A DNA stretch of 64,000 nucleotides. Origin: Chloroflexota bacterium (GTDB lineage Bacteria; Chloroflexota; Anaerolineae; Anaerolineales; DRMV01). Every line of letters starts with the position of its first letter. The stretch's first letter is position 1. The stretch lies in contig DRMV01000008.1 in assembly GCA_011322445.1 (NCBI GenBank), positions 1 to 64,000 on the forward strand, written 5' to 3'. Positions 22,103 to 42,976 of this stretch are shown here, piece by piece. Both the position numbers and the translations under genes were made by a program. Below the pieces are notes generated by a model, which was not told where the DNA came from, ran no database searches, and saw only the letters and a list, made by a program, of their open reading frames with translations.

Positions 22103-22113
22103 GGGGGGAAAGC

Positions 22114-22569: not shown

Positions 22570-22582
22570 TGCGGAGACCCCA

Positions 22583-25597: not shown

Positions 25598-27200
25598 CCC
25601 CACCAGGGCTACTGCTGGCGTCGGCGACTTTCGCGTCCGCGTCCTCAACATCCTTTTAGGCATGGCCGTCATCGGGAGTATCCCGATCGTGGCCGTCAAT
25701 GCCAGCACAGCCGCCAAAGCGGGCGCCTATGGCCTGGCCGCCGCCTATGTGGGGGCGTTCCTGTTCCTCCTGTTGCTCTTTTTCCTCAAAGCCTACCCCC
25801 ACCTCTACACCTGGCGGGTGTGGGGTCTGATGCTCGTCATGTATAGCGTCACCACCGCGGCCTATACCATCAGCGGCGTTGTCGGCGATGGGCGCGTCTG
25901 GCTGCTGGGGACGCTGGCTATGGGCACCCTGTTGTTGCCTGAGCCTCACAACTTCGTCAACCTGGCTTTCGGCCTTTCTTATCACTTCGGCATGGGCTTC
26001 ATCTTCACCCACGGCTGGTTACCCATGCCGCCCAACGAACCCAATCTTCACAGCGACCTCCCCGCGGCGTGGACCCGCACCGGCTTCACTCTGATGGGTG
26101 TGACCCTGACCCTGGGGGCAGCACTGGTGCTTTACCGCCGCAGCCTGGAAAACACCCTGGAAGAAAGTGAAACCCTCAACGCCATTCTGGAAAAAGAGCG
26201 CCGCCGCCTGGAAGAACAAGGGCAAACCCTGGAACGCCGCCTGGCCCAGATTCGCACCGCCAGTGAAATCGCCCGCGTCATCACCACCATTTTGGACCCC
26301 GATGAGCTCATCAAGCGCGTGGTCAACCTGGTGCGCGACCGCTTCGACCTGTACTATGTTGGTATCTTCCTGGTTGACGAGCGCGGTGAATACGCCGTCT
26401 TGCGCGCGGGCACTGGCGAAGCAGGCCGCAAAATGCTGGCCGAAGGCCACAAACTGGCTATCGGCGGCGCCTCCATGATTGGGTGGAGCATCAGTAACCG
26501 CAAGCCTCGCATCGCCCTTGACGTGGGGGAAGAAGCCGTCCGTTTCGCCAACCCCCACTTGCCCCTCACCCGCACCGAACTGGCTTTGCCCCTGATCAGC
26601 CACGGCGAAGTGCTCGGTGCAATGACCGTGCAATCGGAGCGCCCGGCCGCCTTCGACGAAGACGACCTCGCCGTGCTACAAAGCATCGTGGACAATGTGG
26701 CGACCGCCCTGCACAACGCCCGGCTTTACCAGGAAACTCAGCGCGGCCTGCAAACCCTGGCAGAAACCCACCGCCGCTTCCTCGCCGAAGCATGGCAAAT
26801 GTCAGCCGATACCCCCGACCAGGTGGAAATTACCATCGGCGCGCCGGAAGAAGCGCCCACAAACGACACCTCCACCTACCCTCTCGAAGTGCCTATCTCT
26901 CTTTATGGGCAAATTCTGGGCACCATCGTCCTGGAAAGCGAAACGCCCTGGTCTGAGGAAGACAAAGACTTTGCCGCCCAGGCCGGCGCGCAACTGGCCC
27001 TCGCCATCGAAAACCTCTACCTGGCACGCCACGCCCAACAAAGCGCCCAGGAAAGCCGCCTTTTGAGCGACCTTTCCGAGCGGCTGGGAGCCACCCTCGA
27101 CCTCGACACCATCCTCCAAACCGCCCTGCGAGAACTGCAACAAATTCTCAACGTCACCGAAGCCGAAATCCAACTGGTCGCGCCCGAAGCGACGGAGTAG
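25584..27200 (+). CDS. Polytopic membrane GAF sensor without kinase domain
   Basis: 538 residues with a GGGGAGGGGA box. About five or six membrane helices in residues 15-185 (ILLGMAVIGSIPIVAV, YVGAFLFLLLLFFL, others), a coiled coil at 190-230, a GAF domain at 235-375 (YYVGIFLVDERGEYAVLRAGTGEAG ... GAMTVQSE), a degenerate second GAF at about 395-480, and the terminal helix SERLGATLDLDTILQTALREL with one strand of a further GAF-like fold. No catalytic output. It overlaps the preceding sensor gene and is followed after three bases by another, implying coupled production. Confidence 0.85.
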   Translation: MTTPNPTRATAGVGDFRVRVLNILLGMAVIGSIPIVAVNASTAAKAGAYGLAAAYVGAFLFLLLLFFLKAYPHLYTWRVWGLMLVMYSVTTAAYTISGVVGDGRVWLLGTLAMGTLLLPEPHNFVNLAFGLSYHFGMGFIFTHGWLPMPPNEPNLHSDLPAAWTRTGFTLMGVTLTLGAALVLYRRSLENTLEESETLNAILEKERRRLEEQGQTLERRLAQIRTASEIARVITTILDPDELIKRVVNLVRDRFDLYYVGIFLVDERGEYAVLRAGTGEAGRKMLAEGHKLAIGGASMIGWSISNRKPRIALDVGEEAVRFANPHLPLTRTELALPLISHGEVLGAMTVQSERPAAFDEDDLAVLQSIVDNVATALHNARLYQETQRGLQTLAETHRRFLAEAWQMSADTPDQVEITIGAPEEAPTNDTSTYPLEVPISLYGQILGTIVLESETPWSEEDKDFAAQAGAQLALAIENLYLARHAQQSAQESRLLSDLSERLGATLDLDTILQTALRELQQILNVTEAEIQLVAPEATE

Positions 27201-27203
27201 ACC

Positions 27204-30200
27204 ATGGCATCATCTTCTTCCCCCCTCCCTCGCACCTCGCTCATGCGGCGTGTGCTTATCGTGAGCGCCGTGCTGTTGCTTGCCTTCATCGTGGCCGGGG
27301 TTGCGATCACCTACGGCAACTTCCATCTGCGCCAACTCGCAGCCCAATACACCACAATGTTGGAGATCAAAGAAAGTGTTTCTAAAACCCTCATGGACCT
27401 GGCTCGTCTGGATAACGGCCTCAGCACTGCCTATCCTACCCACAATATCCGCTTCCTTCAGGAAGAAACCTCGCTGTGGATCACCGACCTGAAACACGAC
27501 CGGGATACACTCCAACAACTCAACGCCCAACTTCCCCCTGATACCCTCACCCGCAAGAGCCTCACTGCCGCGCTGCCCCGCCTCAACCAGGTCATCATCC
27601 TTGCCGAAGGCATCCTGAGCCAGGCTCAAATCAACAACTGGTCCGCAGCCGACTTTCGCCGCCAAATGCTGCGCCGCCAGGAAATCGCACTTCGCTCCAC
27701 CCTCGAGCGCGTTTACGTCCACGCCGACGAATACAACCAGCAACACGCCCAGGCCCTGGCGAACACCACCCGCTTGTTGATGGGCGTGCCCCTCTTCATC
27801 ACTTTGTTAGGGCTGCTCTTCCTGCTGGGCGGCATTCTGCTTCTGCGACGGCACATCATCCAGCCCCTCGAAACGCTCACCACGCAAATTCAACACTTTG
27901 CCGAAGGCGACTTCAGCGTCCGCGTACCGGTGCACCAAGGGGATGAAATCGGGCAACTGGCACACACCTTCAACCTGATGGCCGACCGCATTCAAGAAGC
28001 CTACGCGACGCTGGCCGACAAAGTCGAAGAGCGCACCCGCGCCCTTCAACAGCGCACAGCCCAACTTCAAGCAGCCACTGAAATCGGCCGCGCTGTGGCA
28101 GCCATTAACGACCTCGACACCATGCTTCAGGAAGCCGTCCGGCTGATCAGCCAGCGTTACGGCTTCTACCACGTGGCTGCCTTCCTGGCTGAAGAAAACG
28201 CTCAGCGGGTGGTCATCCGCGCGGCCTATACCCAAAACGGCAATGCTGCAGAGCGCCTGCTGGCCGAGCACCTGAGCATCCCCCAACACGATTCCAGCGT
28301 CATCGGGCAAACCCTGACAACCATCCAGCCTCATACCGCCCAGTTTTCCCCTGACGCCCCCCCTCGCCCTGAACTGGCAGCCACCCGCATCGAAATGGCC
28401 CTGCCCCTCAAGAGCGGCAACCGCATTTTGGGCGTGTTAGACGTGCATTCCCAAAACGCCGAACCGCTGACGCCCGAAGAAATTACGGCGCTGCAAATGG
28501 TGGCCGACCTGCTGGCCGTTGCCATTGCTAATGCTTACCTGCTGCGTGAAACACAAAGCGCTCTGGAAGCTGCCCAGCGGGCTTACGAGCAACTCAGTCA
28601 ACAAGGCTGGCAACGCTTCCTCCAAATGCAGCGCGTGTTGGGCTTTCGGCTGGAGCCCAGCGGGCAAATTCGCCCCTTGCCCAAAGAGCAAGTCAAGCAC
28701 TCCCTCCCCGCGGCCAGCGACGAAACGCCGCCCTCGCCCCCTTCTGACGACGGCGAAGCCCTGCACGAACACCGCTTCCTGGTCGCGGCCCGCGGCCGCA
28801 CGGTAGCCGTTGCCCAACTGCGCAAGCCCACCCCGTGGAAACCTGCCGAGAAACGCCTGTTAGACCGCCTGGCCGACCGCCTGGGCAGCGTGTTGGAAAG
28901 CGCCCGCCTGTACGCCGAAGCCCAACGGCGCTCGGCGCAACTGCAAATCGCTTCTGAAATCGCCCGCGACGCCAGCGGCACCCTCGACCTCGACGAACTG
29001 CTCCGCAAGGCCATCAACCTGGTGCGCGAACGGTTTGGCTTCTACCACGCCTCGGTATTCCTGCTCGACGAAAGCGGCCAATACGCTTACGTCAAAGAAT
29101 CCACTGGCGAAGCAGGCGAACAACTCAAAGCCCGCCGCCACCGCCTGGCCGTAGGCTCGGCTTCTGTCATCGGTCAAACGCTCGCCAGCGGGGCGCCGGT
29201 GGTGGTCAACGATGTCAGCCAAAGCGAAATTCACCACTTCAACCCCCTGCTGCCCAATACGCAGGCAGAAATGGGCCTTCCGCTCAAGGTCGGCAACGAA
29301 CTCATTGGCGCCCTTGACATTCAAGCCGTTTACACACACGCCTTCAGTGAAGAAGACGTCGCCGTGCTGCAAATTCTGGCCGACCAGTTAGCCATCGCCG
29401 TGGTCAACGCCCGGCTGTTTGCCGAAGCCCAGGAACACCTGGTGCAACACCGCTACCTGCACCAAATTACCGCAGCCGCTGCCTCGGCCACCACCGTCGA
29501 GGAAGCCATCCGCAACGTCGTCGAAAGCCTGCACGCCGTCCGCCCCGACGAAGCAGTGGCTCTCCTTGTCCCAACGGAAGACACCCCTCAAACCCTGCGG
29601 CTGGCCGCATGGGCAGGGCATACCCTCAACCCCGAGGCAGCCCGCCGCATCCGCATTCCGTTAGGAGAAGGCGCTATTGGCCGCGCGGCTGCCGACAAGC
29701 AGCCCGTTCTCATCGGCGATACCAGCGCCAGCAACAACACCGGCGCCCTCTCTCCCGACACCCGGGCCATCCTGGTCGAACCCCTCATCTACCGCGGCGA
29801 ATTGTTGGGGGTGCTGGACCTGGAAAGCGCCGTTGCCAACGCCTATGACGAGCATGATCTGGAAATGCTCCGCACCTTAGCCAACAGCCTGGCCGCCATC
29901 ATCGCCAACATCCGCTTGCTCGAAGAGGTCCGCCGCCACTCCAATGAACTGTCGCTGCTCTATGAAATTACCGCGGCCGCGGCTTCCGAGGTAGACCTCG
30001 ACAAACTGCTCAATCTGCTCGCCCATCGCCTGCAAGAAGGGCTCGACGTCCTCCACTGCGGTGTGATCCTCTTCGACGACAACGGCCAAACCGGCACCCT
30101 GGTGGCCTCGGCTTCTGCCGAAGGAGCCCCCGGCGCCGGCATGGTCGGCACGAAGATCCCGCTGGATTCCTCCTCCATTCAAATCGCCCTGCACACAGGC

Positions 30201-30629
30201 AAACCGGTCGTCTACCGCGACATCACCCAAGACGAGCGCATCGCCGACATCCGCCCCCTGCTGGAACAGCGCGGCACACGCCAGCTCATCGTGGTGCCGC
30301 TCCTCTCCCGCGATGAAATTATCGGCACCTTGGGGCTGGATATTGCCGACCCCAACCGGCAAATCACCGACAACGACCTGCGCCTGTTAGAGCAGATTGC
30401 CCGCCAAATCGCAACCTCGGTCGAAGTGGCCCGCCTGTTCCAGCAAGCCGTGCGTACGGCCGAGCGTGAACACACCGTCACCGAGATTACGACCAAAATC
30501 CGCGCCACTAACGACCCGCAAGCCATTTTGCAAACCGCCATCGAAGAATTACGGAAAGCCCTGCGGGTGCAACAGACCCAGATTGTTTTCATCGACGAAG
30601 ACGGAAACTCCCCTTCTGACAATGCTTAA
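27204..30629 (+). CDS. Membrane sensor: HAMP plus multiple GAF domains, no kinase domain
   Basis: 1141 residues. TM1 about 14-36, a periplasmic four-helix-type region about 160 residues long, TM2 about 192-212, HAMP (QPLETLTTQIQHFAEGDF), coiled coil, then four or five GAF domains. Several share the GFYHASVFLLDESGQYAYV and GALDIQAV motifs with the sibling sensors. It ends in EITTKIRATNDPQAILQTA and a single beta strand, the same type of tail as the two preceding sensors. No H box or ATPase domain. It probably feeds the hybrid kinase encoded two genes downstream (inference). Confidence 0.85.
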   Translation: MASSSSPLPRTSLMRRVLIVSAVLLLAFIVAGVAITYGNFHLRQLAAQYTTMLEIKESVSKTLMDLARLDNGLSTAYPTHNIRFLQEETSLWITDLKHDRDTLQQLNAQLPPDTLTRKSLTAALPRLNQVIILAEGILSQAQINNWSAADFRRQMLRRQEIALRSTLERVYVHADEYNQQHAQALANTTRLLMGVPLFITLLGLLFLLGGILLLRRHIIQPLETLTTQIQHFAEGDFSVRVPVHQGDEIGQLAHTFNLMADRIQEAYATLADKVEERTRALQQRTAQLQAATEIGRAVAAINDLDTMLQEAVRLISQRYGFYHVAAFLAEENAQRVVIRAAYTQNGNAAERLLAEHLSIPQHDSSVIGQTLTTIQPHTAQFSPDAPPRPELAATRIEMALPLKSGNRILGVLDVHSQNAEPLTPEEITALQMVADLLAVAIANAYLLRETQSALEAAQRAYEQLSQQGWQRFLQMQRVLGFRLEPSGQIRPLPKEQVKHSLPAASDETPPSPPSDDGEALHEHRFLVAARGRTVAVAQLRKPTPWKPAEKRLLDRLADRLGSVLESARLYAEAQRRSAQLQIASEIARDASGTLDLDELLRKAINLVRERFGFYHASVFLLDESGQYAYVKESTGEAGEQLKARRHRLAVGSASVIGQTLASGAPVVVNDVSQSEIHHFNPLLPNTQAEMGLPLKVGNELIGALDIQAVYTHAFSEEDVAVLQILADQLAIAVVNARLFAEAQEHLVQHRYLHQITAAAASATTVEEAIRNVVESLHAVRPDEAVALLVPTEDTPQTLRLAAWAGHTLNPEAARRIRIPLGEGAIGRAAADKQPVLIGDTSASNNTGALSPDTRAILVEPLIYRGELLGVLDLESAVANAYDEHDLEMLRTLANSLAAIIANIRLLEEVRRHSNELSLLYEITAAAASEVDLDKLLNLLAHRLQEGLDVLHCGVILFDDNGQTGTLVASASAEGAPGAGMVGTKIPLDSSSIQIALHTGKPVVYRDITQDERIADIRPLLEQRGTRQLIVVPLLSRDEIIGTLGLDIADPNRQITDNDLRLLEQIARQIATSVEVARLFQQAVRTAEREHTVTEITTKIRATNDPQAILQTAIEELRKALRVQQTQIVFIDEDGNSPSDNA

Positions 30630-30640
30630 GGAGCCCGCCG

Positions 30641-31426
30641 ATGGCCTATCCCATCGCAATTTGTAGCCAAAAAGGCGGTGTTGCCAAAACCACCACAACG
30701 CTGAGCCTGGCTGGCGCCCTTGCCGAACAGCACTACCGGGTTTTGGCAATCGACCTCGACCCGCAAAGCAACCTGACGTTGGGCTTCGGCTTCCAGCCGC
30801 GCCAGTTCCAATACACCCTTGCCGATGTCTTGCTCAACGCCGCCGACGCCACGACCGTCCTCGTCCCTACCGACATCGCGGGTATTGACCTCATTCCCGC
30901 AGGCAAACAGCTCCATCTGGCAGAGCGTTACCTTCCCAGTCGACCCCGTTACCAATATCTTCTCAAAGACGCCCTCCAACCCCTCCAAGACGCCTACGAC
31001 TACATCCTGCTGGATTGTCCCCCTTCCCTCAGCGTGCTCAGCACCAATGCTTTAGTGACAGCATCCATGGCCTTGTTGCTCACCCAGGCAGAATATTTCT
31101 CGGCCTACGCTCTCAAGCCCATGCTACAAACGCTGCAAACCATCCGACAACGGCACAATCCTACCCTGGTTTACCGCATTCTTCTCACCATGTTCCGGCG
31201 TCGCAACCGAGCCCATCGTATCATCCGGGCACGACTGGAAGCCACCTTCGGCGGCGGCCTTTGCCGCACCGTGATCGAGACCGACACCAAACTACGGGAA
31301 GCGGCCATTGCTGGCATGCCCATCACCCACTTCTCTTCCAGCAGCCGCAGCGCATTGCAATATCGCGACCTGGCCCAGGAGTTAGTTGCTTATGTCCAAA
31401 AAGAAAGCATTCGAGAAACGGCTTGA
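30641..31426 (+). CDS. ParA/Soj-like P-loop ATPase
   Basis: 261 residues with an AAGGAG box. Deviant Walker A KGGVAKTT (11-18), the signature AIDLDPQSNLT (D38/D40), and LLDCPPSLS as Walker B region: a ParA/MinD-type dimerising ATPase. No ParB gene is nearby, which argues against a chromosome partition locus. Instead it is enclosed between GAF sensors and a hybrid kinase, and its end overlaps the kinase start by 35 bases. ParA-like proteins such as ParC/PpfA position chemosensory arrays; a similar role in placing this signalling complex is an inference. Confidence 0.88.
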   Translation: MAYPIAICSQKGGVAKTTTTLSLAGALAEQHYRVLAIDLDPQSNLTLGFGFQPRQFQYTLADVLLNAADATTVLVPTDIAGIDLIPAGKQLHLAERYLPSRPRYQYLLKDALQPLQDAYDYILLDCPPSLSVLSTNALVTASMALLLTQAEYFSAYALKPMLQTLQTIRQRHNPTLVYRILLTMFRRRNRAHRIIRARLEATFGGGLCRTVIETDTKLREAAIAGMPITHFSSSSRSALQYRDLAQELVAYVQKESIRETA

Positions 31427-34400
31427 CGCCCTCTTCCAAACCCTGCAAGAAGAAACTGCCGAAGCCGAGGCGCTTCACATTGCTCCCGAGCGCATTGAGG
31501 GGTGGGGTTGGCAGAGCGACGCGGCAGGGCGCTACCAGGCCTGTGACGAAAGCATCACCTCCCTCTTGGGCTACCCGCGTGAAGCGCTCTTAGGGCAGGC
31601 CATTGACCGCTTTGCCCTTGAGACTGCCTCTCAAGAAGCCGTCCGCCGCGCCCTGAACGCCGGCGACTTTCCCGCCGAGGTGCCGGTTATTCTGCGAGAT
31701 GCCCACGGCCAAAGCCGTGCGGCGTTGTTCTACATCGTCAAACAAACACCCGAGGGCGGCTTTCAAGGCTTTGTGCGCCTGCAAACCGATGGGGGCATGC
31801 CCACCGAACCCCTGACGCCGCTTCCCCAACCCGCCGCGGCGCTGACCCTCGGCGAGATCTTCCCCAAAGGGTTACGCACCGACGGCCAAAAGGTACTACC
31901 GGCAGAGCGCTCCCTGACACCAGTCGGCATGCGCGCCCTGCAAGCCCGGCAACCCATCGCGACCAGCAGCCCCGAAGGCGCTGCACTGGCCGTGCCGCTG
32001 GAAGTCCCGCCCAAAACCGCCCTGCTGGAAGCCCTCGACCCTTCCCCCGACCGCACCTGGACGCCTGATGAAGAGCGGCTGGTCGAACAAGTCGCCGAAC
32101 AGCTGGCCCTCGCGCTGGAAAACGCCCAACTTTTCCAATCGGCCCAACGCCGCGCGGCTGAATTGGAAACCCTGCACCAGATGGCAACGGCCATCAACCG
32201 CTCGCTGGACCTCGACGAAATTTACCACGAGGTGCTCCAACAGTTGCAAAGCCTGGTGCATGTCGACGCAGGGCTCATTACCCAACCCATCGAAGGCGAC
32301 GACGAATATCTGCAACTGGTGGCCCATTGGAATCTTCCCCCCGAACTGGTTGAACGGTTAGAAAAGAACAAAATCGCCATTCAACGCAGTTGCTGCGGCC
32401 TCACTTACCAGAAGCGCGAGATCGTCGTGCTTTCCGACCTCGAACTCGCGCACGAAGGCGCCCCCGAGATCGGCATGGTGCCCCGCCAGTTCGGCTTCCA
32501 TTCATACATGGGCGCGCCTTTGATTTACCAGGACCAGGTGCTGGGCACACTGTGCCTCTTCCGCCGCAACGTCCACGAAGCGACCGAGCACGAAAAACGG
32601 CTTCTGAGCACAATTGCCAACCAAGTGGCCTCTGCCGCAGCCAACGCCCGCCTTTTCCAGCAAACGAAAGACGCGCTGGAAACCACCGAAAGCCTTTACG
32701 AAGCCACCGCGACTTTCAACGCGGCAACATCCTACGAAGACATCCTGAAGGCTATCCACGCTCACGTGGGGGCACATGCGCGTATCATTACCCTGGGTGC
32801 ATTCTCCAAACCTTGGGTCGACGATAACAACCCACCAGAGTGGATTACTCCTCTAGCCTATTGGAGCAACCTTAAAGCACGGGAAGTTGACCCCGATATA
32901 CTTCACCAATTAGCAAACTACAAGTTTCCCCTATCTGACTACCCTGACCTCCAGGAAATTCGCAACGGACGATTCATCGAAGACATTGAAAAATGGGAAA
33001 GCGCTACACCTCAAACGCGCTACATCTACACTGACCTACTAAAGTCTAAAGCAACAGCCTTTTTACCCCTCTATGTAGGTGGAGAGTGGTTTGGCGTCCT
33101 CAACATCATTTACGATGACCATGTTGAGTTCAGTCACGCCTACCGACAATTTCTTGGCGCGTTGGCAAGCCAGGCCAGTATCGCTATCCAAAACTTACGC
33201 TCACTGGAAGCCATCCACCAGCGCACTGAAGAAACCAAAGCCCTTTACCAAGCCACTGCCCAATTCAACGCGGCCACTTCCTACGATGACATCGTCCAAA
33301 CCCTTCAGGAAGTGCTTCAGCAGCCCCTCAGCCTGGTGGTGCTGGGGTTGTTCAACCGCCCCTGGACCAAAGACGATGAGCCTGAGATCATCGAGCCGGT
33401 TGCTTATTGGGCTGCGCCCCACATCCCTCCTGAAGTCGCCGCGGAACTGCAAAAGCCCTACCCCATTGAGCACTTCCCGGTCATCCGCCAGCTCTCGCCC
33501 GACAAGCCACTGATCATCCCCGACACCTCCGACAACCCGCCGTGGGATGCCAACACCCACCACGTTTACGCCGAAGTGCTGGGGGGGAAAGCCGCGGCGT
33601 TCATTCCCCTGGAAGTCAGCGGCCGCTGGATTGGTTTCCTGAACCTGCTTTACAGCGAACCTGTGCACTTCGACCAGGCCACGCACCAACGCATCCGAGC
33701 CCTGGTGACCCAGGCAGGCATCGCGGTAGAAACCCTGCGGGCGCTGGACACCATCCGCCAGCGCAGTGAAGAAACCGAAGCCCTTTACAGAGCCACCGCC
33801 GCCTTCAACACCGCCACAACTTACCAGGACGTCTTGCAAACCCTTCACGACCACATCGGCGAGCACGTTCACACCGTCATCATCAGCATGTTCAACCGCC
33901 CCTGGGATGACGAACACACTCCCGAATGGGTCTACCCGCTGGGCTACCACACCAGCAGCGACATTCCACCCGACTTACTCGAAACGCTGGCTTCTCAACG
34001 CTACCCTATCGAAAGTTTCCCAACGATTCGGCACATTCGAGAAGGGCTGTTCATTCCCGATACCTCCAAACGGGCTGAGTGGAATGAAGCCACGCGCGTG
34101 CTGTATGCAGACCAACTGCACGCCCGGGCCATCGCCTTTGTTCCCATGCACCTGGGCGGTCGCTGGATTGGCTTCCTGAACGTGCTCTACGACCAGCCCA
34201 TGACGTTCACGCCACGTGAGCGGCAATTCGTGCAAACGCTGACCAGCCAGGCTGGCGTTGCCATTGAAAACCTGCGTTCCCTTGAAACCATCCAAAAACG
34301 CAGCAAGGAAACCGAGACCCTCTACCAACTGGCCGCCCGCCTCAACGAAACCAGCAGTTACCAGGACATCGTAAACGCCCTTCACGACCTCACCCCGTTG

Positions 34401-36857
34401 GGCGAAGGCGCCAGCAACATCTCCCTGAATGTCTTCAGCAAACCCTGGCAGGACCCCGACGACATTCCCCAGTGGGTTAGCGTGATGGCACGGTGGAGCA
34501 AACTGCCGTCCGACGCCCTGCTTCCTCGTTACCCCTTGGCACAATTCCCAGCGGCGCGCTTGCTGAGCCCCTCAGAGCCGCTGGTGATTGCTGACGTCGC
34601 CAACGACCCGCGGTTAGACGAACAGACACGCGCCCTTTACGCCCAACAATTTCGCGCCGCCAGCACAGTTTTTTACCCCCTGGTGGCTGCTGGTCAATGG
34701 CTGGGCTACGTCAACGCCATTTACGGCCAGCAGCGCGAGTTTGCCGAAGACGAACTCCGCCTGATTTCCGCGGCCGTCTCGCAAGCCGCTGTGGCCTACC
34801 AGAACCTGCACCGCTACGAAACCACCCAGAAATACGCTCAGGACCTGGAAACGGCCGCCCTCACGGCCAGCGAAATCGCTGCCGCCAGCCAGGATATGGA
34901 AGCCTTGCTCAGCCATTCGGTAGAACTCATCCGCGAACGCTTCGGGTTCTACCACGCTTCGGTATTCCTCATCGATGAAAGCGGGTCCTACGCGGTGGTG
35001 CGGGCTTCCACGGGCAAGGCGGGCGAAGAGATGCTCCAACGCCACCACCGCTTAGCCATCGGCCACCGCTCGACCGTGGGGCAGGCGGCCGCCCGGCGCG
35101 AACCGGTCATCCTCAACAATGTCCTCCAAAGCGACATCCACCGCCCCAACCCACTCTTGCCTGACACGCGGGCCGAGGCAGCCATCCCCCTGATTGCAGG
35201 CGAGCGGCTCATCGGCGTGTTAGACGTGCAAGCCACCGAAATCAATGCCTTCACCGAAGATAGCGTCCGCATGCTCCAACTGTTGGCCACCCAACTGGCC
35301 GTCGCCATCGAAAACGCCCAGGCCTACGAACTGGAACGCCAGGCCCTGGAAGAAATGCGGCGCGCCGACGAACTCAAGAGCCAGTTCCTCGCCAACATGA
35401 GCCACGAGCTCCGCACCCCGCTCAACTCGATCATCGGCTTCTCGCGTGTCATCCTCAAAGGCATCGACGGCCCTATCACCGACCTGCAACAACAAGACCT
35501 CACCGCCATCTACAACGCCGGTCAACACCTGCTGGGCCTGATCAACGACATCCTCGACCTCTCTAAAATCGAGGCGGGCAAAATGGAACTTGCCTTCGAG
35601 GAAGTCGACATTGGCGACCTAGTCAACAGCGTCATGTCCACAGCCGTGGGCCTGGTCAAAGACAAACCGGTGGAACTGGTCAAAGAGATTCAGCCCGACC
35701 TCCCCATCATCCACGCCGACCCCATCCGGGTGCGGCAGGTGCTTCTCAACCTGGTTTCCAACGCGGCCAAATTCACCGAAAACGGCTACATCAAGGTCTT
35801 CGCCCGCCTGCAAAAAGGGCCTCACGGGCTGGAAGAAGTGCTCATCGGCGTGGAAGACACCGGCCCCGGCATTTCCAAAGAAGACCAGGAAAAACTCTTC
35901 AAACCGTTCTCGCAAGTCGATGCTTCGCTCACCCGCAAAACCGGCGGCACGGGCCTGGGGCTCTCGATTTCCCGCAACCTGGTCGAGATGCACGGCGGGC
36001 GCATTTGGGTCGAATCTGAAGTAGGCAAAGGCTCTACCTTCTATTTCACCTTGCCGCTCATCCAGGCCGGCACTTCGGACGAAGAAAGCGAGCGCATCAT
36101 TCTCGCCATTGACGACGACACCAACGTCATCCACCTCTACCAGCGCTACCTCACGCCGGAAGGCTACCGCGTGGTCCCGCTTACCGACCCCAACATGGCC
36201 GTCGCACGGGCGCGCGAACTCAAGCCCGTCGCCATTCTGCTGGATATCATGATGCCGGGCCGCGATGGCTGGCAAGTGTTGCAAGACCTGAAAACCCACG
36301 AGGCCACCAAGCACATTCCTGTCATCATCGCCAGCATCGTCGACGAGCGAGAAAAGGGCTTCAGCCTGGGCGCGGCCGAATATCTGGTCAAACCCATTCT
36401 GGAAGAAGACCTCAAACGCGCGCTGAAAACGCTGGACCCGGATGGGCAGGTCAAAGAAGTGCTCATCGTGGAAGACGACACTTCAGATCGCTACCTGATC
36501 ACCCGCCTGCTGGAAGAAATCGGCTCCTACACCATTCGCACCGCGGAAACAGGCCAGGAAGCGTTAGAGCAAATTCGGGAACGCCGCCCAGACGCCATCG
36601 TTCTGGATCTGCTCCTCCCTGAAATGGATGGCTTCGCCGTCCTGGAAGCCATTCGCGGCACCGCCGAGTGGCAAGACATCCCCGTGGTGATTTTCACAGC
36701 CGCCGAACTGTCGGCTGGGGACCTGGCCCGCCTGCGGGCGGCATCGCAGGCCCTGCTCAAGAAAGGCGCTTTGGGCACTGACGAACTGCTCCAACGCCTG
36801 CGCCAGGTGCTTCAGAAAGTCGGCCCCGCTGCGCCACCCCCTGAGCAAGACGCGTAA
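31392..36857 (+). CDS. Giant hybrid histidine kinase: PAS, GAF repeats, kinase, two receivers
   Basis: 1821 residues from ATG 31392, no membrane segment. A PAS-like domain (about 38-140), a short GAF, then about four tandem GAF-type repeats of roughly 195 residues, each opening with E-T-x-x-LY-x-A/L-x-x-FN-x-x-(S/T)-Y-x-D and holding a central (F/N)-(R/K)-PW motif, then a GAF of the GFYHASVFLIDESG type. The kinase core has the H box NMSHELRTPL (H1338), N box NLVSNAAKF, and G boxes DTGPGIS and GTGLGLSIS. Two receivers follow with D1618 and D1739. It is probably the phosphorelay hub for the three kinase-less sensors and two receivers. Bases 32770-33200 have lower GC and different codon use than the rest. 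Confidence 0.92.
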   Translation: MSKKKAFEKRLDALFQTLQEETAEAEALHIAPERIEGWGWQSDAAGRYQACDESITSLLGYPREALLGQAIDRFALETASQEAVRRALNAGDFPAEVPVILRDAHGQSRAALFYIVKQTPEGGFQGFVRLQTDGGMPTEPLTPLPQPAAALTLGEIFPKGLRTDGQKVLPAERSLTPVGMRALQARQPIATSSPEGAALAVPLEVPPKTALLEALDPSPDRTWTPDEERLVEQVAEQLALALENAQLFQSAQRRAAELETLHQMATAINRSLDLDEIYHEVLQQLQSLVHVDAGLITQPIEGDDEYLQLVAHWNLPPELVERLEKNKIAIQRSCCGLTYQKREIVVLSDLELAHEGAPEIGMVPRQFGFHSYMGAPLIYQDQVLGTLCLFRRNVHEATEHEKRLLSTIANQVASAAANARLFQQTKDALETTESLYEATATFNAATSYEDILKAIHAHVGAHARIITLGAFSKPWVDDNNPPEWITPLAYWSNLKAREVDPDILHQLANYKFPLSDYPDLQEIRNGRFIEDIEKWESATPQTRYIYTDLLKSKATAFLPLYVGGEWFGVLNIIYDDHVEFSHAYRQFLGALASQASIAIQNLRSLEAIHQRTEETKALYQATAQFNAATSYDDIVQTLQEVLQQPLSLVVLGLFNRPWTKDDEPEIIEPVAYWAAPHIPPEVAAELQKPYPIEHFPVIRQLSPDKPLIIPDTSDNPPWDANTHHVYAEVLGGKAAAFIPLEVSGRWIGFLNLLYSEPVHFDQATHQRIRALVTQAGIAVETLRALDTIRQRSEETEALYRATAAFNTATTYQDVLQTLHDHIGEHVHTVIISMFNRPWDDEHTPEWVYPLGYHTSSDIPPDLLETLASQRYPIESFPTIRHIREGLFIPDTSKRAEWNEATRVLYADQLHARAIAFVPMHLGGRWIGFLNVLYDQPMTFTPRERQFVQTLTSQAGVAIENLRSLETIQKRSKETETLYQLAARLNETSSYQDIVNALHDLTPLGEGASNISLNVFSKPWQDPDDIPQWVSVMARWSKLPSDALLPRYPLAQFPAARLLSPSEPLVIADVANDPRLDEQTRALYAQQFRAASTVFYPLVAAGQWLGYVNAIYGQQREFAEDELRLISAAVSQAAVAYQNLHRYETTQKYAQDLETAALTASEIAAASQDMEALLSHSVELIRERFGFYHASVFLIDESGSYAVVRASTGKAGEEMLQRHHRLAIGHRSTVGQAAARREPVILNNVLQSDIHRPNPLLPDTRAEAAIPLIAGERLIGVLDVQATEINAFTEDSVRMLQLLATQLAVAIENAQAYELERQALEEMRRADELKSQFLANMSHELRTPLNSIIGFSRVILKGIDGPITDLQQQDLTAIYNAGQHLLGLINDILDLSKIEAGKMELAFEEVDIGDLVNSVMSTAVGLVKDKPVELVKEIQPDLPIIHADPIRVRQVLLNLVSNAAKFTENGYIKVFARLQKGPHGLEEVLIGVEDTGPGISKEDQEKLFKPFSQVDASLTRKTGGTGLGLSISRNLVEMHGGRIWVESEVGKGSTFYFTLPLIQAGTSDEESERIILAIDDDTNVIHLYQRYLTPEGYRVVPLTDPNMAVARARELKPVAILLDIMMPGRDGWQVLQDLKTHEATKHIPVIIASIVDEREKGFSLGAAEYLVKPILEEDLKRALKTLDPDGQVKEVLIVEDDTSDRYLITRLLEEIGSYTIRTAETGQEALEQIRERRPDAIVLDLLLPEMDGFAVLEAIRGTAEWQDIPVVIFTAAELSAGDLARLRAASQALLKKGALGTDELLQRLRQVLQKVGPAAPPPEQDA

Positions 36858-36868
36858 CCGTGACCTCA

Positions 36869-36898
36869 CCAAAAACGGCGGCGCACCGCCGTTTTTGG
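36869..36898 (+). terminator. Strong hairpin terminator after hybrid kinase
   Basis: A 13-bp perfect stem (CCAAAAACGGCGG and complement, loop of 4) with A and T tracts on both sides, able to act in both directions. It separates the hybrid kinase from the threonine synthase fusion, which starts only 20 bases later. Confidence 0.85.
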
Positions 36899-36917
36899 TC
36901 TTTATGGAAGTTTCACC

Positions 36918-38591
36918 ATGAACACCGAATTCATCACCGAATGCCTCGACTGCGGCCATCAACAACCCTTTGCCCCCCTCGACACCCGCTGCGAAAAGTG
37001 CGGCAGCGAGTGGATGGTGGCGCGCTACGATTACGACACCCTCGCCACCACCTTGCCAGCCGTCTGGCCTTCCCGCCCCTTCGACCTCTGGCGCTACCAC
37101 GAACTGCTACCTGTCAGCGCCCCTCGCCCCGAAATCTCGATGGGCGAAGGCGGCACGCCCTTGCTTCCCCTCAATCGCCTGGGGATGATGCTCAAACTGC
37201 CCCACATCTACTTCAAAGACGAGCGTCAAAACCCCACCTCTTCGTTCAAAGACCGTCAGGCCGCCGTAACCATCGCCGTGCTCAAAGAAGCCGGGCTGAC
37301 CGAAATGGTCGTCGCATCCACCGGGAACGTCGCCATTGCCTACGCGGCTTATGCCGCCCGGGCAGGCATCAAACTCTGGGCTTTCGTCACCAGCCTGGTG
37401 CCGGCAGAGAAGATGCGCGAAATTGCCATTTATGGCGCTCAGGTCATCAAAGTCGGCGGCACTTACGATGAAACCAAGCACGTGGCTGCCGAGTTTGCCA
37501 AACAACGCGGCCTCTATCTGGATAAAGGCGCCCGCTCTCTGCCCACCGTCGAATCGATGAAAACGCTGGCCTTCGAAATCAGCGAACAGATCACCGACAT
37601 CCTCGGCGCGCCGGGCACCGGCTTCCCGTGGCGCACCCCCGACTGGTTCGTCCAGGCGGTCAGCGGGGCATTGGGGCCGCTGGGCGTCCAAAAAGCCTAC
37701 GACGAACTGCAACAACTGGGGTTTGTCTCTCGCGCCCCCAAAATGGCGCTCATTCAAAGCGAAGGCTGCGCGCCCATGGCACACGCCTGGAAACAAAACC
37801 GGCCTGTGGCCGAGCCTGTCCGCCTGCCGCGCACCCACATTGCCACCCTGGCCACCGGCGACCCCGGGCGGGTTTACACCCTGATTTACGACGCCCTCAA
37901 AACCCACGGCGGCACCGTCACCAGCGTGAGCGACGAAGAAGCCTTTCGCGCCATGCACATCCTCGCCAAAATGGAAGGCCTGTCCGTCGAGCCAGCCACG
38001 GCAGTGGCCGTGGCCGGAGTCATCCGCCTGGCGCGGGAAGGCATCATCCGCCCTGACGAAGTAGTGGTCATCAACGGCACGGGGCACACCATGCCGATCG
38101 AATCGCACATTCTCGGCAAACGGTGGGTCAAGAACGTCGACCTGCCCCACGCCGAAGCCTCGGAGACCGCGCCGCCCACCGAAGGGCTGCAAGCCGCCCT
38201 CAACACCCTGGTTTCCCGCGAAGTCCCCCACATTGCCATCGTGGACGACCATGAACCGGCTCGCATCTTGCTGCGCCGCGTGCTACAATCGTTGGGGGAA
38301 TTCACCATCTCAGAAGCCAGCAACGGCACCGAGGCGATTGCGCTGGCCCGCAAGGAACACCCCGACCTCATCTTGCTCGATTTGATGATGCCGGGAACCG
38401 ATGGCTTCGAGGTCATTGAAACCTTGCGCACCGACCCAACCACCCACAACATCCCCATCATCGCCGTCACCGCAAAAGCCCTGACCCCCGAGGAACAACA
38501 CCGCCTAAGTGGGCAAATCGAAAAGCTCCTCCAAAAGGGGGAGTTCCTAACCGACGAGTTGCTGGATGAAATTCGGGCTTTATTGGGGTAA
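36918..38591 (+). CDS. thrC: Threonine synthase fused to a C-terminal receiver domain
   Basis: 557 residues in one frame. Residues 1-35 form a zinc ribbon (C9, C12, C25, C28). Residues 70-405 are a fold-type II PLP enzyme with GEGGTPL, the PLP lysine K111 in NPTSSFKDRQ, and GTGHTMP near the end, the pattern of threonine synthase (O-phosphohomoserine to threonine). Residues 437-555 are a complete receiver with D443/D444, phospho-acceptor D488 (LLDLMMPG), T518 and K540. The receiver's end (KLLQKGEFLTDELLDEIRALL) resembles the last receiver of the hybrid kinase just upstream. Phosphorylation might control the enzyme or the enzyme domain may be a passenger; both are inference. Confidence 0.88.
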   Translation: MNTEFITECLDCGHQQPFAPLDTRCEKCGSEWMVARYDYDTLATTLPAVWPSRPFDLWRYHELLPVSAPRPEISMGEGGTPLLPLNRLGMMLKLPHIYFKDERQNPTSSFKDRQAAVTIAVLKEAGLTEMVVASTGNVAIAYAAYAARAGIKLWAFVTSLVPAEKMREIAIYGAQVIKVGGTYDETKHVAAEFAKQRGLYLDKGARSLPTVESMKTLAFEISEQITDILGAPGTGFPWRTPDWFVQAVSGALGPLGVQKAYDELQQLGFVSRAPKMALIQSEGCAPMAHAWKQNRPVAEPVRLPRTHIATLATGDPGRVYTLIYDALKTHGGTVTSVSDEEAFRAMHILAKMEGLSVEPATAVAVAGVIRLAREGIIRPDEVVVINGTGHTMPIESHILGKRWVKNVDLPHAEASETAPPTEGLQAALNTLVSREVPHIAIVDDHEPARILLRRVLQSLGEFTISEASNGTEAIALARKEHPDLILLDLMMPGTDGFEVIETLRTDPTTHNIPIIAVTAKALTPEEQHRLSGQIEKLLQKGEFLTDELLDEIRALLG

Positions 38592-38638: not shown

Positions 38639-39565
38639 ATGAAACACGCGCGGCGGGGACTTCGTGCGGCGGTGCTCTCTGCCCTCTTCCTGGGCATGGC
38701 ACCCATTTTCGGCAAGCAGGCTATCCTGGCCGGCTTGCCTCCCCTCGCGGTGGTGGCCCTGCGCACCGTGTTCGCCGCGCTGCTCCTCTTCTTCATCCTC
38801 CTGATTTTCAAACGGCCTTTCTTGCACGTTTACTCCTTAGGGCTCATTGGTTGTTTGCTGGCCGGCGCGATCAACGGCATCGGCTCACTTTTCTATTACA
38901 GCGCCCTTGGCCGAATTGACGCCGGCATTGGGCAGTTGCTCTATTCGCTGTACCCGCTTTTCGTGGCCCTGTGGCTTTGGTTAGATAAACAGCCCCCCAC
39001 CCGGCTCACCCTGGTGCGGTTGGCTCTGGCCGTACCAGCCGTAGCGCTGCTGACCCTCGGCGGCGCTCACCATCTCGACCCCCTCGGCATGGGGATGATG
39101 CTTCTGGCCTCCGCGCTGTACGCGCTGCACATTCCGGTCAACCAGCGCGTGCTGTTCGACGTGCCAGCACCCACCGTAACCCTTTACACCTTGCTGGCAA
39201 TGAGTGGGGTGGTCGTCCCGGCATTCCTGATTCTGGGGCCGGTGCAATTTCCTTACAGCGCCGCTACGTGGGAACCCGTGATAGGCCTTACGCTGGTGAC
39301 CTTCTTCTCGCGCCTCACCCTCTTCCTCGGCGTGAAACACATCGGCGGCATGCAAACCGCCCTGCTGGGGTTAGGAGAACTGCTGGTCACGCTGGCGCTT
39401 TCCCATTGGTGGCTGCACGAAAGCCTGACTTCAACCCAATGGGCTGGCGCCATTATCCTGGGCGTGATTTTATTACTGGCAGGCATAGACCAACCCGCCG
39501 CCCCCACCCGCACCCATCCCGGCGGCGGGTGGCTCAGCTGGCTGCGGCCGCGTGGCCTGGCATAA
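38639..39565 (+). CDS. EamA/DMT-family exporter
   Basis: 308 residues, about ten membrane helices in two five-helix halves (LFLGMAPIFGKQAILAGLPP begins the first), matching the EamA drug/metabolite transporter family. These move small metabolites such as amino acids; the substrate is not predictable. Its position after threonine synthase could suggest amino-acid export, but a 47-base gap and lack of other evidence leave this open. The C-terminus is Pro/Gly rich. Confidence 0.85.
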   Translation: MKHARRGLRAAVLSALFLGMAPIFGKQAILAGLPPLAVVALRTVFAALLLFFILLIFKRPFLHVYSLGLIGCLLAGAINGIGSLFYYSALGRIDAGIGQLLYSLYPLFVALWLWLDKQPPTRLTLVRLALAVPAVALLTLGGAHHLDPLGMGMMLLASALYALHIPVNQRVLFDVPAPTVTLYTLLAMSGVVVPAFLILGPVQFPYSAATWEPVIGLTLVTFFSRLTLFLGVKHIGGMQTALLGLGELLVTLALSHWWLHESLTSTQWAGAIILGVILLLAGIDQPAAPTRTHPGGGWLSWLRPRGLA

Positions 39566-39648: not shown

Positions 39649-39779
39649 AACCTTCGGGGCAGGGTGAGCAGCCACGGCTGCAATTCCCGACCGGCGGTAA
39701 AAGCCCGCGAGCGCCGCACCAACGGCGCAGACCCGGTGTAATTCCGGGGCCGACGGTAAAGTCCGGATGGGAGAAGGTT
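39649..39779 (+). promoter_or_regulatory. FMN riboswitch (RFN element)
   Basis: Closing stem P1 is AACCTTC (39649-39655) with GAAGGTT (39773-39779). Between them the hallmark RFN segments appear in order: GGGGCAGGGTGA, ATTCCCGACCGGCGGTAAAAGCCCGCGA, ACCCGGTGTAATTCCGGGGCCGACGGTAAAGTCC (given here in short pieces) and GGATGGGAGAAGG. The aptamer binds FMN and normally shuts off riboflavin synthesis or uptake genes. It precedes an ABC permease gene, so that transporter is predicted to handle flavin. Confidence 0.96.
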
Positions 39780-39839
39780 GGCTGGCACGTTGCACTGCCG
39801 TGCAAGGTGCTGGTTTGCGTGCTTCTGGCGCGCCCCGTG

Positions 39840-39877
39840 CCCCGAAAACGCACCTGCCGTTTTCGGGGATTTTCGTT
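39840..39877 (+). terminator. Riboswitch expression-platform terminator
   Basis: CCCCGAAAACG pairs with CGTTTTCGGGG (39858-39868), followed by ATTTTCGTT. It lies about 60 bases after the aptamer and is the expected FMN-controlled terminator. Confidence 0.75.
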
Positions 39878-39912
39878 CTGCGGCGGCGCGCGCCCGCGCC
39901 ACGTACCTCTCC

Positions 39913-39940
39913 CGCCCCGTCGCCACGGGGCGTTTGCTTT
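39913..39940 (+). terminator. Second leader terminator
   Basis: CGCCCCGT / ACGGGGCG stem with loop CGCC, followed by TTTGCTTTT, only 27 bases before the permease start. It forms a tandem pair with the terminator at 39840. Confidence 0.6.
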
Positions 39941-39966
39941 TCCCCGCCCCTTGCGAGGATGCGCTC

Positions 39967-40785
39967 ATGAATCTGGCCCACACCCGCCGCATGGTTTTCC
40001 GCACAGCCCGCCGCAGCCACCGCCGCATACGCCACACTTTCCTTTCCGTGGCCGTGGCGCTGCTGTTGTGGTGGGGATTGGTGCGTCTACTCAACCTGCC
40101 GGAATTCCTGCTCCCCACCCCGTGGGAAGTGGCCGTGCGCGGGTGGCAGGCCCTGCAAGATGGCACCCTTTTGCACCACACCTGGATTACCCTGCAAGAG
40201 GTGCTCTCTGGCCTGGCATTAGGGGCGGGAAGCGCCACCCTGCTGGGCTACGCGCTGGCAAAATCGCGCACCTTAGAACGCCTGCTCGCGCCTTACCTGG
40301 TCGCGAGCCAATCGGTGCCCGTTGTCGCCATCGCCCCGCTGCTCATCATCTGGTTTGGCACCGGCCTGCTGGCAAAAACGCTGATCTGCGCCCTCATCGT
40401 GTTCTTCCCGGTGCTGGTGAACACCGTGGTAGGCATTCGCAGCGTGCCCGAAGAGCTCCGCGACCTGCTCCACTCGTTAGATGCAACGCCGTGGCAGGTC
40501 ATCCGCTATCTGGAAATCCCCGCGGCCATGCCGGTGTTCCTGGGCGGCCTGCGCATCGGGGCTACTCTCTCGGTCATCGGTGCGGTAGTCGGTGAATTCG
40601 TCGCTGCCGACAGCGGCCTGGGCTTCCTCATCAACCTGGCACGCGGCCGCTACGATACACCGCTGGTCTTCGTTGCCGTTTTCACCCTTATTGGCCTTGC
40701 CCTGGCCCTTTACGGCGGTGTGCTCGCGCTGGAACGCCATTTTCTGGCCTGGCAAGCCCCTGCCGGGAAACCCCGCCGCTATTGA
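39967..40785 (+). CDS. ribX: Flavin ABC transporter permease (RibX-like)
   Basis: 272 residues from ATG 39967 with GAGGA seven bases upstream; earlier in-frame starts lie inside the riboswitch leader. Six membrane helices and the BPD_transp_1 EAA-type loop (VPEELRDLLHSLDATPWQVIRYLEIPAAM region) typical of the SsuC/TauC/ThiX group. Under an FMN riboswitch and followed by an NMT1-like binding protein and an ATPase, it matches the RibXY flavin uptake system described in Chloroflexi. The basic N-terminal extension (RRSHRRIRH) is cytoplasmic. Confidence 0.88.
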   Translation: MNLAHTRRMVFRTARRSHRRIRHTFLSVAVALLLWWGLVRLLNLPEFLLPTPWEVAVRGWQALQDGTLLHHTWITLQEVLSGLALGAGSATLLGYALAKSRTLERLLAPYLVASQSVPVVAIAPLLIIWFGTGLLAKTLICALIVFFPVLVNTVVGIRSVPEELRDLLHSLDATPWQVIRYLEIPAAMPVFLGGLRIGATLSVIGAVVGEFVAADSGLGFLINLARGRYDTPLVFVAVFTLIGLALALYGGVLALERHFLAWQAPAGKPRRY

Positions 40786-41145
40786 ACACCGCCGCTTACG
40801 CGCAACTTTCCGCCGTGTGCGGGCGAAAAAGCCGAGTTCCGGAAAAGCACGTTGAGCGGAGATTGCGGAGCAAGTGCGGTCAAAACGCGCTGTTCTTGGC
40901 GTTTCGTACTTCGACTTCGCTCCCGTTGGTCGCTCCGCTCAGTACGAAACGCTACCGAGCGGCGGCGAAGCCCGCCAAAGCACCTGTCACCTGTGCTGAA
41001 CCCACTGAAGCAGCCTCCCATATTGCCGCCACGATAACACCCCAGGATGATTTGCAACACCAACGCTCCTTCACACCGTTGTCAACCAACTTTTGAACTT
41101 CTCAACAAAAAGTTCGTCTAATCTTTTCTCGGAGGTGCCTTCCCC
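40786..41145. other. ribX-ribY intergenic region with repeat
   Basis: 360 bases without a convincing gene inside an otherwise compact operon. It holds a dispersed repeat copy (40841-40892) and a 10-bp inverted repeat GTTTCGTACT / AGTACGAAAC (40901-40950). It ends in an AT-rich leader with CGGAGGTGCC before ribY. Confidence 0.6.
40841..40892 (+). repeat. Dispersed repeat copy 1
   Basis: Contains CGTTGAGCGGAGATTGCG and ends AAACGCGCTG. An inverted copy lies at 52948-53003 with the same word and the same end, about 80% alike by eye. Confidence 0.65.
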
Positions 41146-42138
41146 ATGAAACGCATCATCACCACCTTAGCACTGCTGCTCACGGTCACTTTGCCCCTTG
41201 CCGCCTGCGGCTCGCAAAAGGCCGCCACGCCCACAGCGCAACCGCTGGTTCACATTCGGCTGCCGATGGGCTACATTCCCAATATTCAATACGCGCCGTT
41301 TTACGTCGCCAAAGAAAAAGGCTACTACCGACAAGCCGGGTTCGACGTCGATTTCGATTACAGTTTTGAAACCGACGGCGTGGCGCTGGTGGGGGCGAAC
41401 AAACTGCCCTTTGCCATTGTTTCGGGTGAGCAGGTGCTGATGGGGCGCGACAAGGGCCTGCCGCTGGTATACGTGATGGCATGGTGGCAGAAATATCCCA
41501 TCGTGGTGATTGCCGACGCCAAACTTGGCCTGAAAACCCCAGCCGACCTGAAGGGCAAACGCATTGGCCTGCCGGGGCTGTTTGGCGCCAACTACATCGG
41601 CCTGGTAGCCCTGCTACACGAATTTGGCCTCACCCCCCACGACGTCACCCTCGATTCCATCGGCTTCAACCAGGTCGAAGCCTTTGCCAGCGGCAAAGAG
41701 CCCGTTGTGGTCGGGTATGTCACCAACGAGCCTATTCAACTCAAAGCCAAAGGCTTCGATATTACCACCTTCCCGGTGGCCGACTACGTCGATCTGGCCT
41801 CCAACGGCATCATCACCAACGAAACGCTCATCAAAGACGACCCTGAAATGGTCCATCGCTTCGTGCGTGCCACCCTGCGCGGCCTCAATTACACCATCCA
41901 CTACCCCAACGACGCTTATGAAATTTCCACAAAGTACGTCGAAGGGCTGGACAAAGCCGACCGGGATGTGCAAATGCAAATTCTCTCAACCGCCATCGCC
42001 TATTGGAAAGGCGACCCTCTTGGCTATACGAAACCCAAAGCCTGGCAAAAAATGCAAGAGATCTTGCTGCAAATGGGGCTGATTTCCAAGCCGCAAGACT
42101 TGCAAGGCGCGTACACCAACGAATTCCTCAAACCCTGA
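41146..42138 (+). CDS. ribY: Flavin ABC transporter binding lipoprotein (RibY-like)
   Basis: 330 residues with a strong GGAGG box. Signal peptide with lipobox LAAC (Cys about 21), then an NMT1/THI5-like fold: GYIPNIQYAPFYVAKEKGYY, a motif shared by thiamine-pyrimidine and flavin binding proteins, and LKGKRIGLPG. It is anchored to the outer face of the membrane and delivers substrate to the permease. The riboswitch context points to riboflavin. ThiY-like pyrimidine binding is the main alternative. Confidence 0.88.
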   Translation: MKRIITTLALLLTVTLPLAACGSQKAATPTAQPLVHIRLPMGYIPNIQYAPFYVAKEKGYYRQAGFDVDFDYSFETDGVALVGANKLPFAIVSGEQVLMGRDKGLPLVYVMAWWQKYPIVVIADAKLGLKTPADLKGKRIGLPGLFGANYIGLVALLHEFGLTPHDVTLDSIGFNQVEAFASGKEPVVVGYVTNEPIQLKAKGFDITTFPVADYVDLASNGIITNETLIKDDPEMVHRFVRATLRGLNYTIHYPNDAYEISTKYVEGLDKADRDVQMQILSTAIAYWKGDPLGYTKPKAWQKMQEILLQMGLISKPQDLQGAYTNEFLKP

Positions 42139-42148
42139 CCCCGCCCTC

Positions 42149-42180
42149 AAGCCCGTGCGTCCACGCCGGCGCACGGGCTT
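42149..42180 (+). terminator. Intercistronic hairpin between ribY and the ATPase gene
   Basis: AAGCCCGTGCG and CGCACGGGCTT form an 11-bp stem (loop 10) without a clean T-run. It probably lowers downstream expression or protects the ribY mRNA end, in keeping with higher need for binding protein. Confidence 0.6.
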
Positions 42181-42196
42181 CCCCCTTCACCTCCCT

Positions 42197-42976
42197 ATGA
42201 ATGCAACCCTCCCCTTAGTGCGTGTTCGCCACCTTGGCGTTGTCTTCCCCACCGAAGACGGGCTGGGGCTGGAAGCCATTCACGACCTTTCTTTTGAAGT
42301 GCAACCGCAGGAATTCCTCGCAGTGGTCGGGCCTTCGGGGTGCGGCAAAAGCACCCTGCTGCGGGTGCTCGCCGGGCTGCTGGAAGCCACCCGCGGCGAA
42401 GTTGCCTTCCCGGCCCACCCGCAAGGCAAACCGCAAGTCGGGCTGGTCTTTCAAAAAGCCAACCTGATGCCGTGGCGAAGTGTGCTGCGCAACATCACCC
42501 TGCCGCTGGAACTGCACGGCGTGCCGTGGCAGGAAGCCGAAGCCCGCGCCCAGGCCATGATTGACCTCATGGGGCTGGAAGGCTTTGCCGACGCGCTGCC
42601 GCGCGACCTCTCTGGCGGCATGGCACAGCGGGTAGCACTGGCTCGGGCGCTTATCCATCGCCCCGACCTGCTGCTGCTCGACGAGCCTTTCACAGCCCTC
42701 GACGCCCTCACCCGCGAACGCCTGTGGGAAGAACTGCTGCGTATCTGGCAGCACGAGCGCACGACCGTGGTCATGGTCACGCATTCGGTGACCGAAGCGC
42801 TGCTGCTGGCCGACCGGGTGCTGGTGCTCACCGACCGTCCGGCGCGCCTGCAAGTGGATCTGCAGGTAGACCTTCCCCGCCCGCGCCACGCCGACCTGCG
42901 CTACACCCCCCATTTTGGCCGCCTGGCCCGCCGCCTGCGGGAAGCCCTCGGAGCCAGCCCCCAAAAGTTGCGGTAA
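42197..42976 (+). CDS. Flavin ABC transporter ATPase (SsuB/TauB-type)
   Basis: 259 residues from ATG 42197; the longer open frame upstream runs through the hairpin and has no ribosome site. Walker [11 protein letters not shown] loop [10 protein letters not shown], signature LSGGMAQR, Walker B LLLLDEP and H loop VTHSV are all present. It belongs to the nitrate/sulfonate/taurine subfamily and powers the preceding permease. RibXY systems in the literature were described without an adjacent ATPase in some genomes; here one is encoded. Confidence 0.9.

Follow-up and report, generated by a model that had tools for sequence, protein, structure and literature searches.

A ThrC-like PLP enzyme fused to a receiver domain and co-inherited with a neighbouring histidine kinase in Chloroflexota

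In the 64,000-nucleotide stretch of Chloroflexota DNA analysed here (hereafter the window; the source is a draft assembly of 53 contigs, and the genome is 96% complete), one forward-strand gene at positions 36918–38591 encodes a zinc ribbon, a ThrC-like fold-type-II PLP domain and a receiver domain, an assignment made from the open reading frame, Pfam and orthologues. As described in an earlier note on this DNA, PLP enzyme with zinc ribbon and receiver follow each other in a single frame: reading the window, this frame starts with ATG, runs uninterrupted over 557 amino acids with no internal stop, and is matched by the Pfam families PALP and Response_reg. The zinc-ribbon cysteines C9, C12, C25 and C28 (36942–37001) are at least 97% conserved over the 85 distinct full-length fused sequences in which residue conservation was counted. 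The PALP domain (PF00291, E 9e-67, 226 bits) extends from residue 73 to 386 (37134–38075) and includes the PLP lysine K111 (37248–37250). It is followed by a linker (residues 393–436, 38094–38225, placed from model and conservation), at the end of which stands a short conserved helix, EGLxxAL (422–428), and by the receiver (PF00072, E 4e-22, 79 bits; residues 439–550, 38232–38567), in which D488, T518 and K540 occupy the positions given in the earlier note. In an AlphaFold model computed from a 13-sequence input (mean pLDDT 78.0, pTM 0.67), linker residues 390–423 have low pLDDT and a helix is found at 424–429. The fold search, which took in mainly the PLP domain of the fusion, retrieved threonine synthase 2c2b as the best match of the enzyme part (Z 43.0, rmsd 2.4, 379 aligned), next the cysteate synthase CapA2 (9k3c, Z 39.3) and then more threonine synthases (Z 35–38).

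Upstream, also on the forward strand, lies the gene of a probable cognate kinase of 1823 amino acids (31386–36857), for which Pfam indicates a GAF array, HisKA, HATPase_c and two receivers. The gap between the kinase stop and the fusion start holds, in this genome, a perfect 14-bp terminator-like hairpin with a T-rich arm (36868–36899, forward strand), which may uncouple the expression of kinase and fusion here. This hairpin is not conserved: of 32 loci checked, L128 alone has one, which is unrelated, and at many of these loci the kinase and fusion genes almost touch or overlap. Downstream of the fusion, after 47 bp, an EamA-family (DMT) transporter is encoded on the same strand (38639–39565, PF00892). 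In the neighbourhood counts, which omit three duplicate loci (L121, L154 and L155), EamA occurs within 1.6 kb downstream of the fusion at 35 of 44 loci, in 33 of them on the same strand, and is absent at nine, including all six class B loci, where a further receiver stands in its place. Class B is a second, paralogous fusion; at its loci L141, L143 and L144 a PRK08197-like enzyme is encoded separately, along with the one receiver, downstream where EamA would otherwise lie, giving two ThrC-like enzymes per cluster. The cluster in the window is directly followed by a set of ABC transporter genes, among them one for an NMT1/THI5-like binding protein (39778–42976); among the loci compared, a similar set is found only in the nearest relative.

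The upstream part of the cluster is sensory and lies on the forward strand as well. It begins with two single-domain receiver-like ORFs (21728–22102 and 22114–22569), recognised as reading frames matched by the fused receiver, and continues with three membrane GAF proteins devoid of a kinase domain (22583–30629; Cache-HAMP-GAF, MASE11-GAF and HAMP-GAF x4 according to Pfam) and a ParA/MinD-like ATPase (AAA_31 in Pfam, 30641–31426). A ParA-like ATPase is present within 9 kb upstream of the fusion at 25 of 44 loci, and a kinase-less dCache-HAMP-GAF protein precedes ParA in all four relatives scanned (4/4). The layout at 21728–31426, with dCache-HAMP-GAF, ParA and soluble kinase, is seen again in relatives and suggests a ParA-positioned signalling assembly. 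As to the nature of the signal, we considered an amino-acid-binding Cache sensor, the motif of which we take to be RxW[YF], and dropped this candidate because, among 20 proteins encoded upstream of ParA, no more than three carry the motif.

The earlier note had asked about further ThrC–receiver fusions, and these turned out to be numerous. Matches were detected in 39 of 61 relatives (E 1e-60), each of which has one or more that cover both domains, in 99 of 298 sampled genomes of the class, about one third (E 1e-90), and, when 301 genomes were sampled phylum-wide, in 34 of them. The last set includes a second Chloroflexota lineage, a separate group with genomes of 6.0–6.9 Mb and 46% identity to the window protein. 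Throughout the 85 fused sequences, K111, D444, D488 and K540 are invariant (85/85), as are S249, G250, G253 and P254 of the PLP loop; residue 518 is T or S and residue 443 is D or E in all 85, so that the acidic pair, phospho-accepting aspartate, T/S and lysine of a receiver are present in every one of them. In the linker helix, G423 and L428 are each conserved in 83/85. Comparing the window with seven relatives, we obtained pN/pS values of 0.14–0.39 for the PLP part, 0.08–0.34 for the receiver and 0.43–0.73 for the linker; since enzyme and receiver values are low relative to the linker, both domains are kept by selection, the constraint on the receiver being at least as strong as that on the enzyme. 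By this pattern, chance is excluded as the origin of the joined frame.

The Chloroflexota matches examined include no relative that carries the two domains as separate adjacent genes, an arrangement that would have spoken against the fusion, and no receiver-less member of the fused enzyme's subfamily. Concerning the partial matches examined (a set that leaves out G081:C682, G197:C106 and G255:C329), two stop at contig ends, G306 is complete on local reading, G189 is spread over three frames with every part there, and G313 has two stops. In G033:C1 (L152/L239), an in-frame deletion removed the receiver together with the second half of the enzyme, whose first 230 residues are joined to the EamA transporter. 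Additional N-terminal domains, as offered by frames of 600–1784 amino acids, were discarded as the extensions resemble non-coding read-through (the 1784-residue frame, from G153, was compared by tblastn alone). No fusion was found in viral contigs. Searches with profile A2 at 1e-110 gave 0 of 296 in the Actinomycetota phylum (of L048) and 0 of 376 in the Acidobacteria phylum (of L052), both weak negatives, since an empty result says little where a known positive is lacking.

We next turn to the identity of the enzyme, which the earlier note had named threonine synthase, a name that could not be upheld. The fused enzyme has a fold-type-II PLP domain with the Schiff-base lysine in SFKDR, and the motifs of its subfamily are the zinc ribbon, the SFKDRQ lysine, ASTGN[VA] and a VSGG-GP-G loop. 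The fused protein attains 144.8 bits against TIGR00260 (thrC; cut-off 167.1) and 261.1 bits against PRK08197 (cut-off 303), below the threshold of either family; some class B fusions do attain the thrC cut-off, at about 167–189 bits. The same genome has a canonical thrC on contig C27 (TIGR00260, 313 bits versus a cut-off of 167), hom (homoserine dehydrogenase) and thrB (homoserine kinase) away from the fusion, and two further ThrC-like proteins on C47 and C33. Another thrC, for which the earlier note had advised looking, thus exists, and the idea that the fusion is the sole thrC of the genome was rejected in view of the canonical thrC, thrB and hom elsewhere. A non-fused thrC-type match of at least 220 bits was present in 26 of 28 genomes tested, comprising 22/24 fusion-bearing genomes and 4/4 genomes with receiver-less relatives; the fusion-bearing G030 and G096 gave no thrC-type match of at least 220 bits among the 24 tested.

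Residues T88, S155, R160 and N188 (Thermus, Tth, numbering), which we take to line the substrate-phosphate site of threonine synthase, are present in 15 of 15 canonical-type ThrC sequences of our alignment and in neither the fused (0/12, from the 85 fused rows) nor the receiver-less sequences (0/4), which have V/A, G, T/A/G and G at these positions. The canonical-type rows are Thermus, the C27 thrC of the same genome and 13 of 20 fetched sequences, the remaining seven being other ThrC-like types in which at least one of the four is missing. Other ThrC-like groups are also devoid of some or all of them, and the cyanobacterial ThrC-like protein L214 (G1040) has none while scoring 341 bits for thrC. 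O-phosphohomoserine is probably no longer the main substrate of the fused enzyme, though L214 and the class B scores leave threonine synthase activity some probability.

In the tree, the fused enzymes form one clade (support 0.994), which is joined with receiver-less proteins from Cyanobacteriota (support 1.0). A search with profile A2 at 1e-110 through 244 genomes of the Cyanobacteriota phylum (that of L068, Coleofasciculus), the only phylum that gave any, detected such receiver-less members in four; these are L208–L211 (G926, G1040, G973 and G948). Their motifs, ASTGNVA, VSGG-GP-G and KDERQ-PT-[ST]FKDRQ, are the same in the fused enzymes. This phylogeny suggests a distinct ThrC-like subfamily and a single fusion event. 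An attempt to read the function from the surroundings of the four receiver-less relatives was dropped, as no shared gene neighbourhood was seen among them. The Actinomycetota locus L048 was likewise considered as ancestral state; its enzyme is thrC-type (308 bits), with an ordinary receiver encoded by a gene of its own behind it, and the locus was therefore not taken as such.

To place the receiver, we built a tree of 150 receivers from the fusion loci. The 44 fused receivers form a clade (support 0.915) inside a group of 67 (support 0.987). The other members of this group are kinase receivers: the full set of 22 that stand second of two, and one that is the single receiver of its kinase. By this grouping, the fused receiver has, on phylogenetic evidence, a common ancestry with the C-terminal receiver of the hybrid kinase next to it, which bears out the resemblance to that kinase's end pointed out previously. 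The earlier suggestion that a receiver from the adjacent locus was fused to thrC is supported in so far as the receivers are related, and is not supported in so far as it names the enzyme threonine synthase.

A histidine-kinase core is encoded directly upstream of the fusion, on the same strand, at 43 of 44 non-duplicate loci, so that a partner kinase is adjacent and co-inherited in nearly every case. The exception, L145 (G030:C74), has a fusion with neither adjacent kinase nor EamA, and its neighbour, as named from reading the sequence, is peptide-deformylase-like. In eight of the 43 loci the kinase core ends less than 200 bp from the fusion; one of these, L144, was scanned and has a kinase without receiver, i.e. 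a plain HK–RR pair. Pairwise distances of kinase and fusion correlate across the 43 loci (r 0.87), a value attained in 0 of 500 permutations. The six class B loci cluster in both the kinase tree and the fusion tree (support 1.0 each), and class A and class B copies share one genome in several cases. As the trees are congruent and class B stands apart in both despite shared genomes, kinase and fusion appear to have travelled together through duplication. We obtained no match to Hpt (PF01627) in the window's own genome, 96% complete as stated, while 8 of 14 control genomes were positive. This result makes direct transfer from kinase to receiver likelier than a phosphorelay. Hence, of the proposal that a phosphorelay switches threonine synthesis, control by the adjacent kinase survives as the natural reading (43/44 loci) and the role in threonine synthesis does not, with canonical thrC, thrB and hom located elsewhere; a phosphorelay in the strict sense is also disfavoured, both by the missing Hpt and by those relatives in which the kinase ends before the fusion without a receiver.

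Taken as a whole, these features are best explained, and we hold this with moderate confidence, by a two-component system in which the output of the response regulator is a distinct ThrC-like PLP enzyme. The data show the fusion and its conservation, inheritance along with the kinase, a full set of catalytic and phosphorylation residues and a separate canonical thrC; we infer phosphotransfer, an effect on catalysis, a change of substrate and a link to EamA, which can be arranged in the following model. A receiver akin to the one that ends the neighbouring kinase would have been fused once, at the C-terminus, in a forebear of those Chloroflexota lineages that now have the fusion. GAF and Cache sensors would feed the upstream kinase, which would most likely phosphorylate D488 directly, as no Hpt is detectable in the genome. 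The effect of phosphorylation would then pass via the conserved EGL..AL helix (422–428) to the PLP domain, where the outcome may be a changed activity or oligomeric state, and EamA would carry substrate or product across the membrane.

This model has to be weighed against other readings of the locus. That the fusion stems from misassembly, or from a recent accident confined to this locality of the tree, is suggested by nothing further than the draft state of the 53-contig assembly, and is contradicted by the full-length fusions of 39 relatives out of 61 and of further genomes, including the single-contig genomes G028 and G269; with this spread and the pN/pS pattern, artefact or chance joining was rejected, and we regard it as practically negligible. 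A more substantial case can be made for a phospho-regulated threonine synthase isozyme that converts O-phosphohomoserine to threonine, with the kinase setting the flux up or down and EamA exporting surplus threonine or homoserine. The best families by sequence and by fold are indeed threonine synthases, class B reaches the thrC cut-off, the 341-bit thrC-type protein shows that such a score is compatible with loss of the four residues, and EamA adjoins the fusion at 35 of 44 loci. Yet a canonical thrC is also in the genome, the window protein falls under the thrC cut-off, and every fused row compared is devoid of the four residues that canonical-type ThrC keeps without exception, and we consider such an isozyme quite unlikely.

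The receiver may also have no role as a switch, serving instead to localise or dimerise the enzyme or as a phosphate sink, or the PLP domain may sense an amino acid and modulate the kinase. The ParA-like protein in the cluster hints at a spatially organised complex, and the kinase-less sensors at a cluster working as a multi-protein assembly. A phosphate sink, however, needs no fusion, and the PLP lysine and the PLP-loop residues are invariant, so that the enzyme does not resemble a dead sensor; overall, we find this set of alternatives unlikely. The two-component reading with an enzymatic output can be extended to a widespread Chloroflexota system in which a PLP enzyme with a new specificity, gated by phosphorylation, works with EamA as the dedicated output, such that an outside signal would lead to an amino-acid-like molecule being made and released without transcription, possibly as a cell–cell signal. 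We put this extension forward as speculation and consider it unlikely.

If the model is correct, signal transduction would act on an amino-acid-type PLP enzyme directly, with no transcription step, and such direct control would have been kept across great evolutionary distance, beyond one genus. The ThrC-like subfamily would also be one so far unrecognised, as automatic annotation would label its members threonine synthase. The class B loci, with a kinase devoid of a receiver next to the fusion, offer ready kinase/regulator pairs.

In the open-access literature we found no paper on a threonine synthase–receiver fusion by title, and none on Anaerolineae two-component systems and threonine synthase. 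Compared with ThrC (TIGR00260; 1uim, 2zsj, 2d1f, 6cgq and 2c2b; Z 35–43), the fused enzyme has the same fold, SFKDR PLP lysine and ASTGN loop, but differs by the replaced positions T88/S155/R160/N188, the score below cut-off, the C-terminal receiver and its separate clade. Cysteate synthase (TIGR03844; 9k3c, CapA2; Z 39.3) is a relative among the ThrC-like PLP enzymes that acts on a different substrate, whereas the fusion reaches 117.2 bits of the 324.9 set as the TIGR03844 cut-off and lies outside that family. The Cyanobacteriota relatives (G926, G948, G973 and G1040) have motifs and clade in common with the fusion but no receiver. Plant threonine synthase is activated by S-adenosylmethionine (PMC3174156), which shows that this fold is open to allosteric gating. 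Response regulators with enzymatic output resemble the present protein in that a receiver is joined to a metabolic-type enzyme, and both bacteria and archaea are known to have REC–enzyme fusions; one section of PMC5847659 presents the archaeal ones as narrow, typically limited to one family or genus, and names no PLP enzyme. Unlike these archaeal fusions as described there, the Chloroflexota fusion occurs in about one third of the sampled genomes of a class and in a second lineage. Overall, the joining of a receiver to a metabolic enzyme is of a known kind, and the version with a PLP enzyme described here is a new variant of it.
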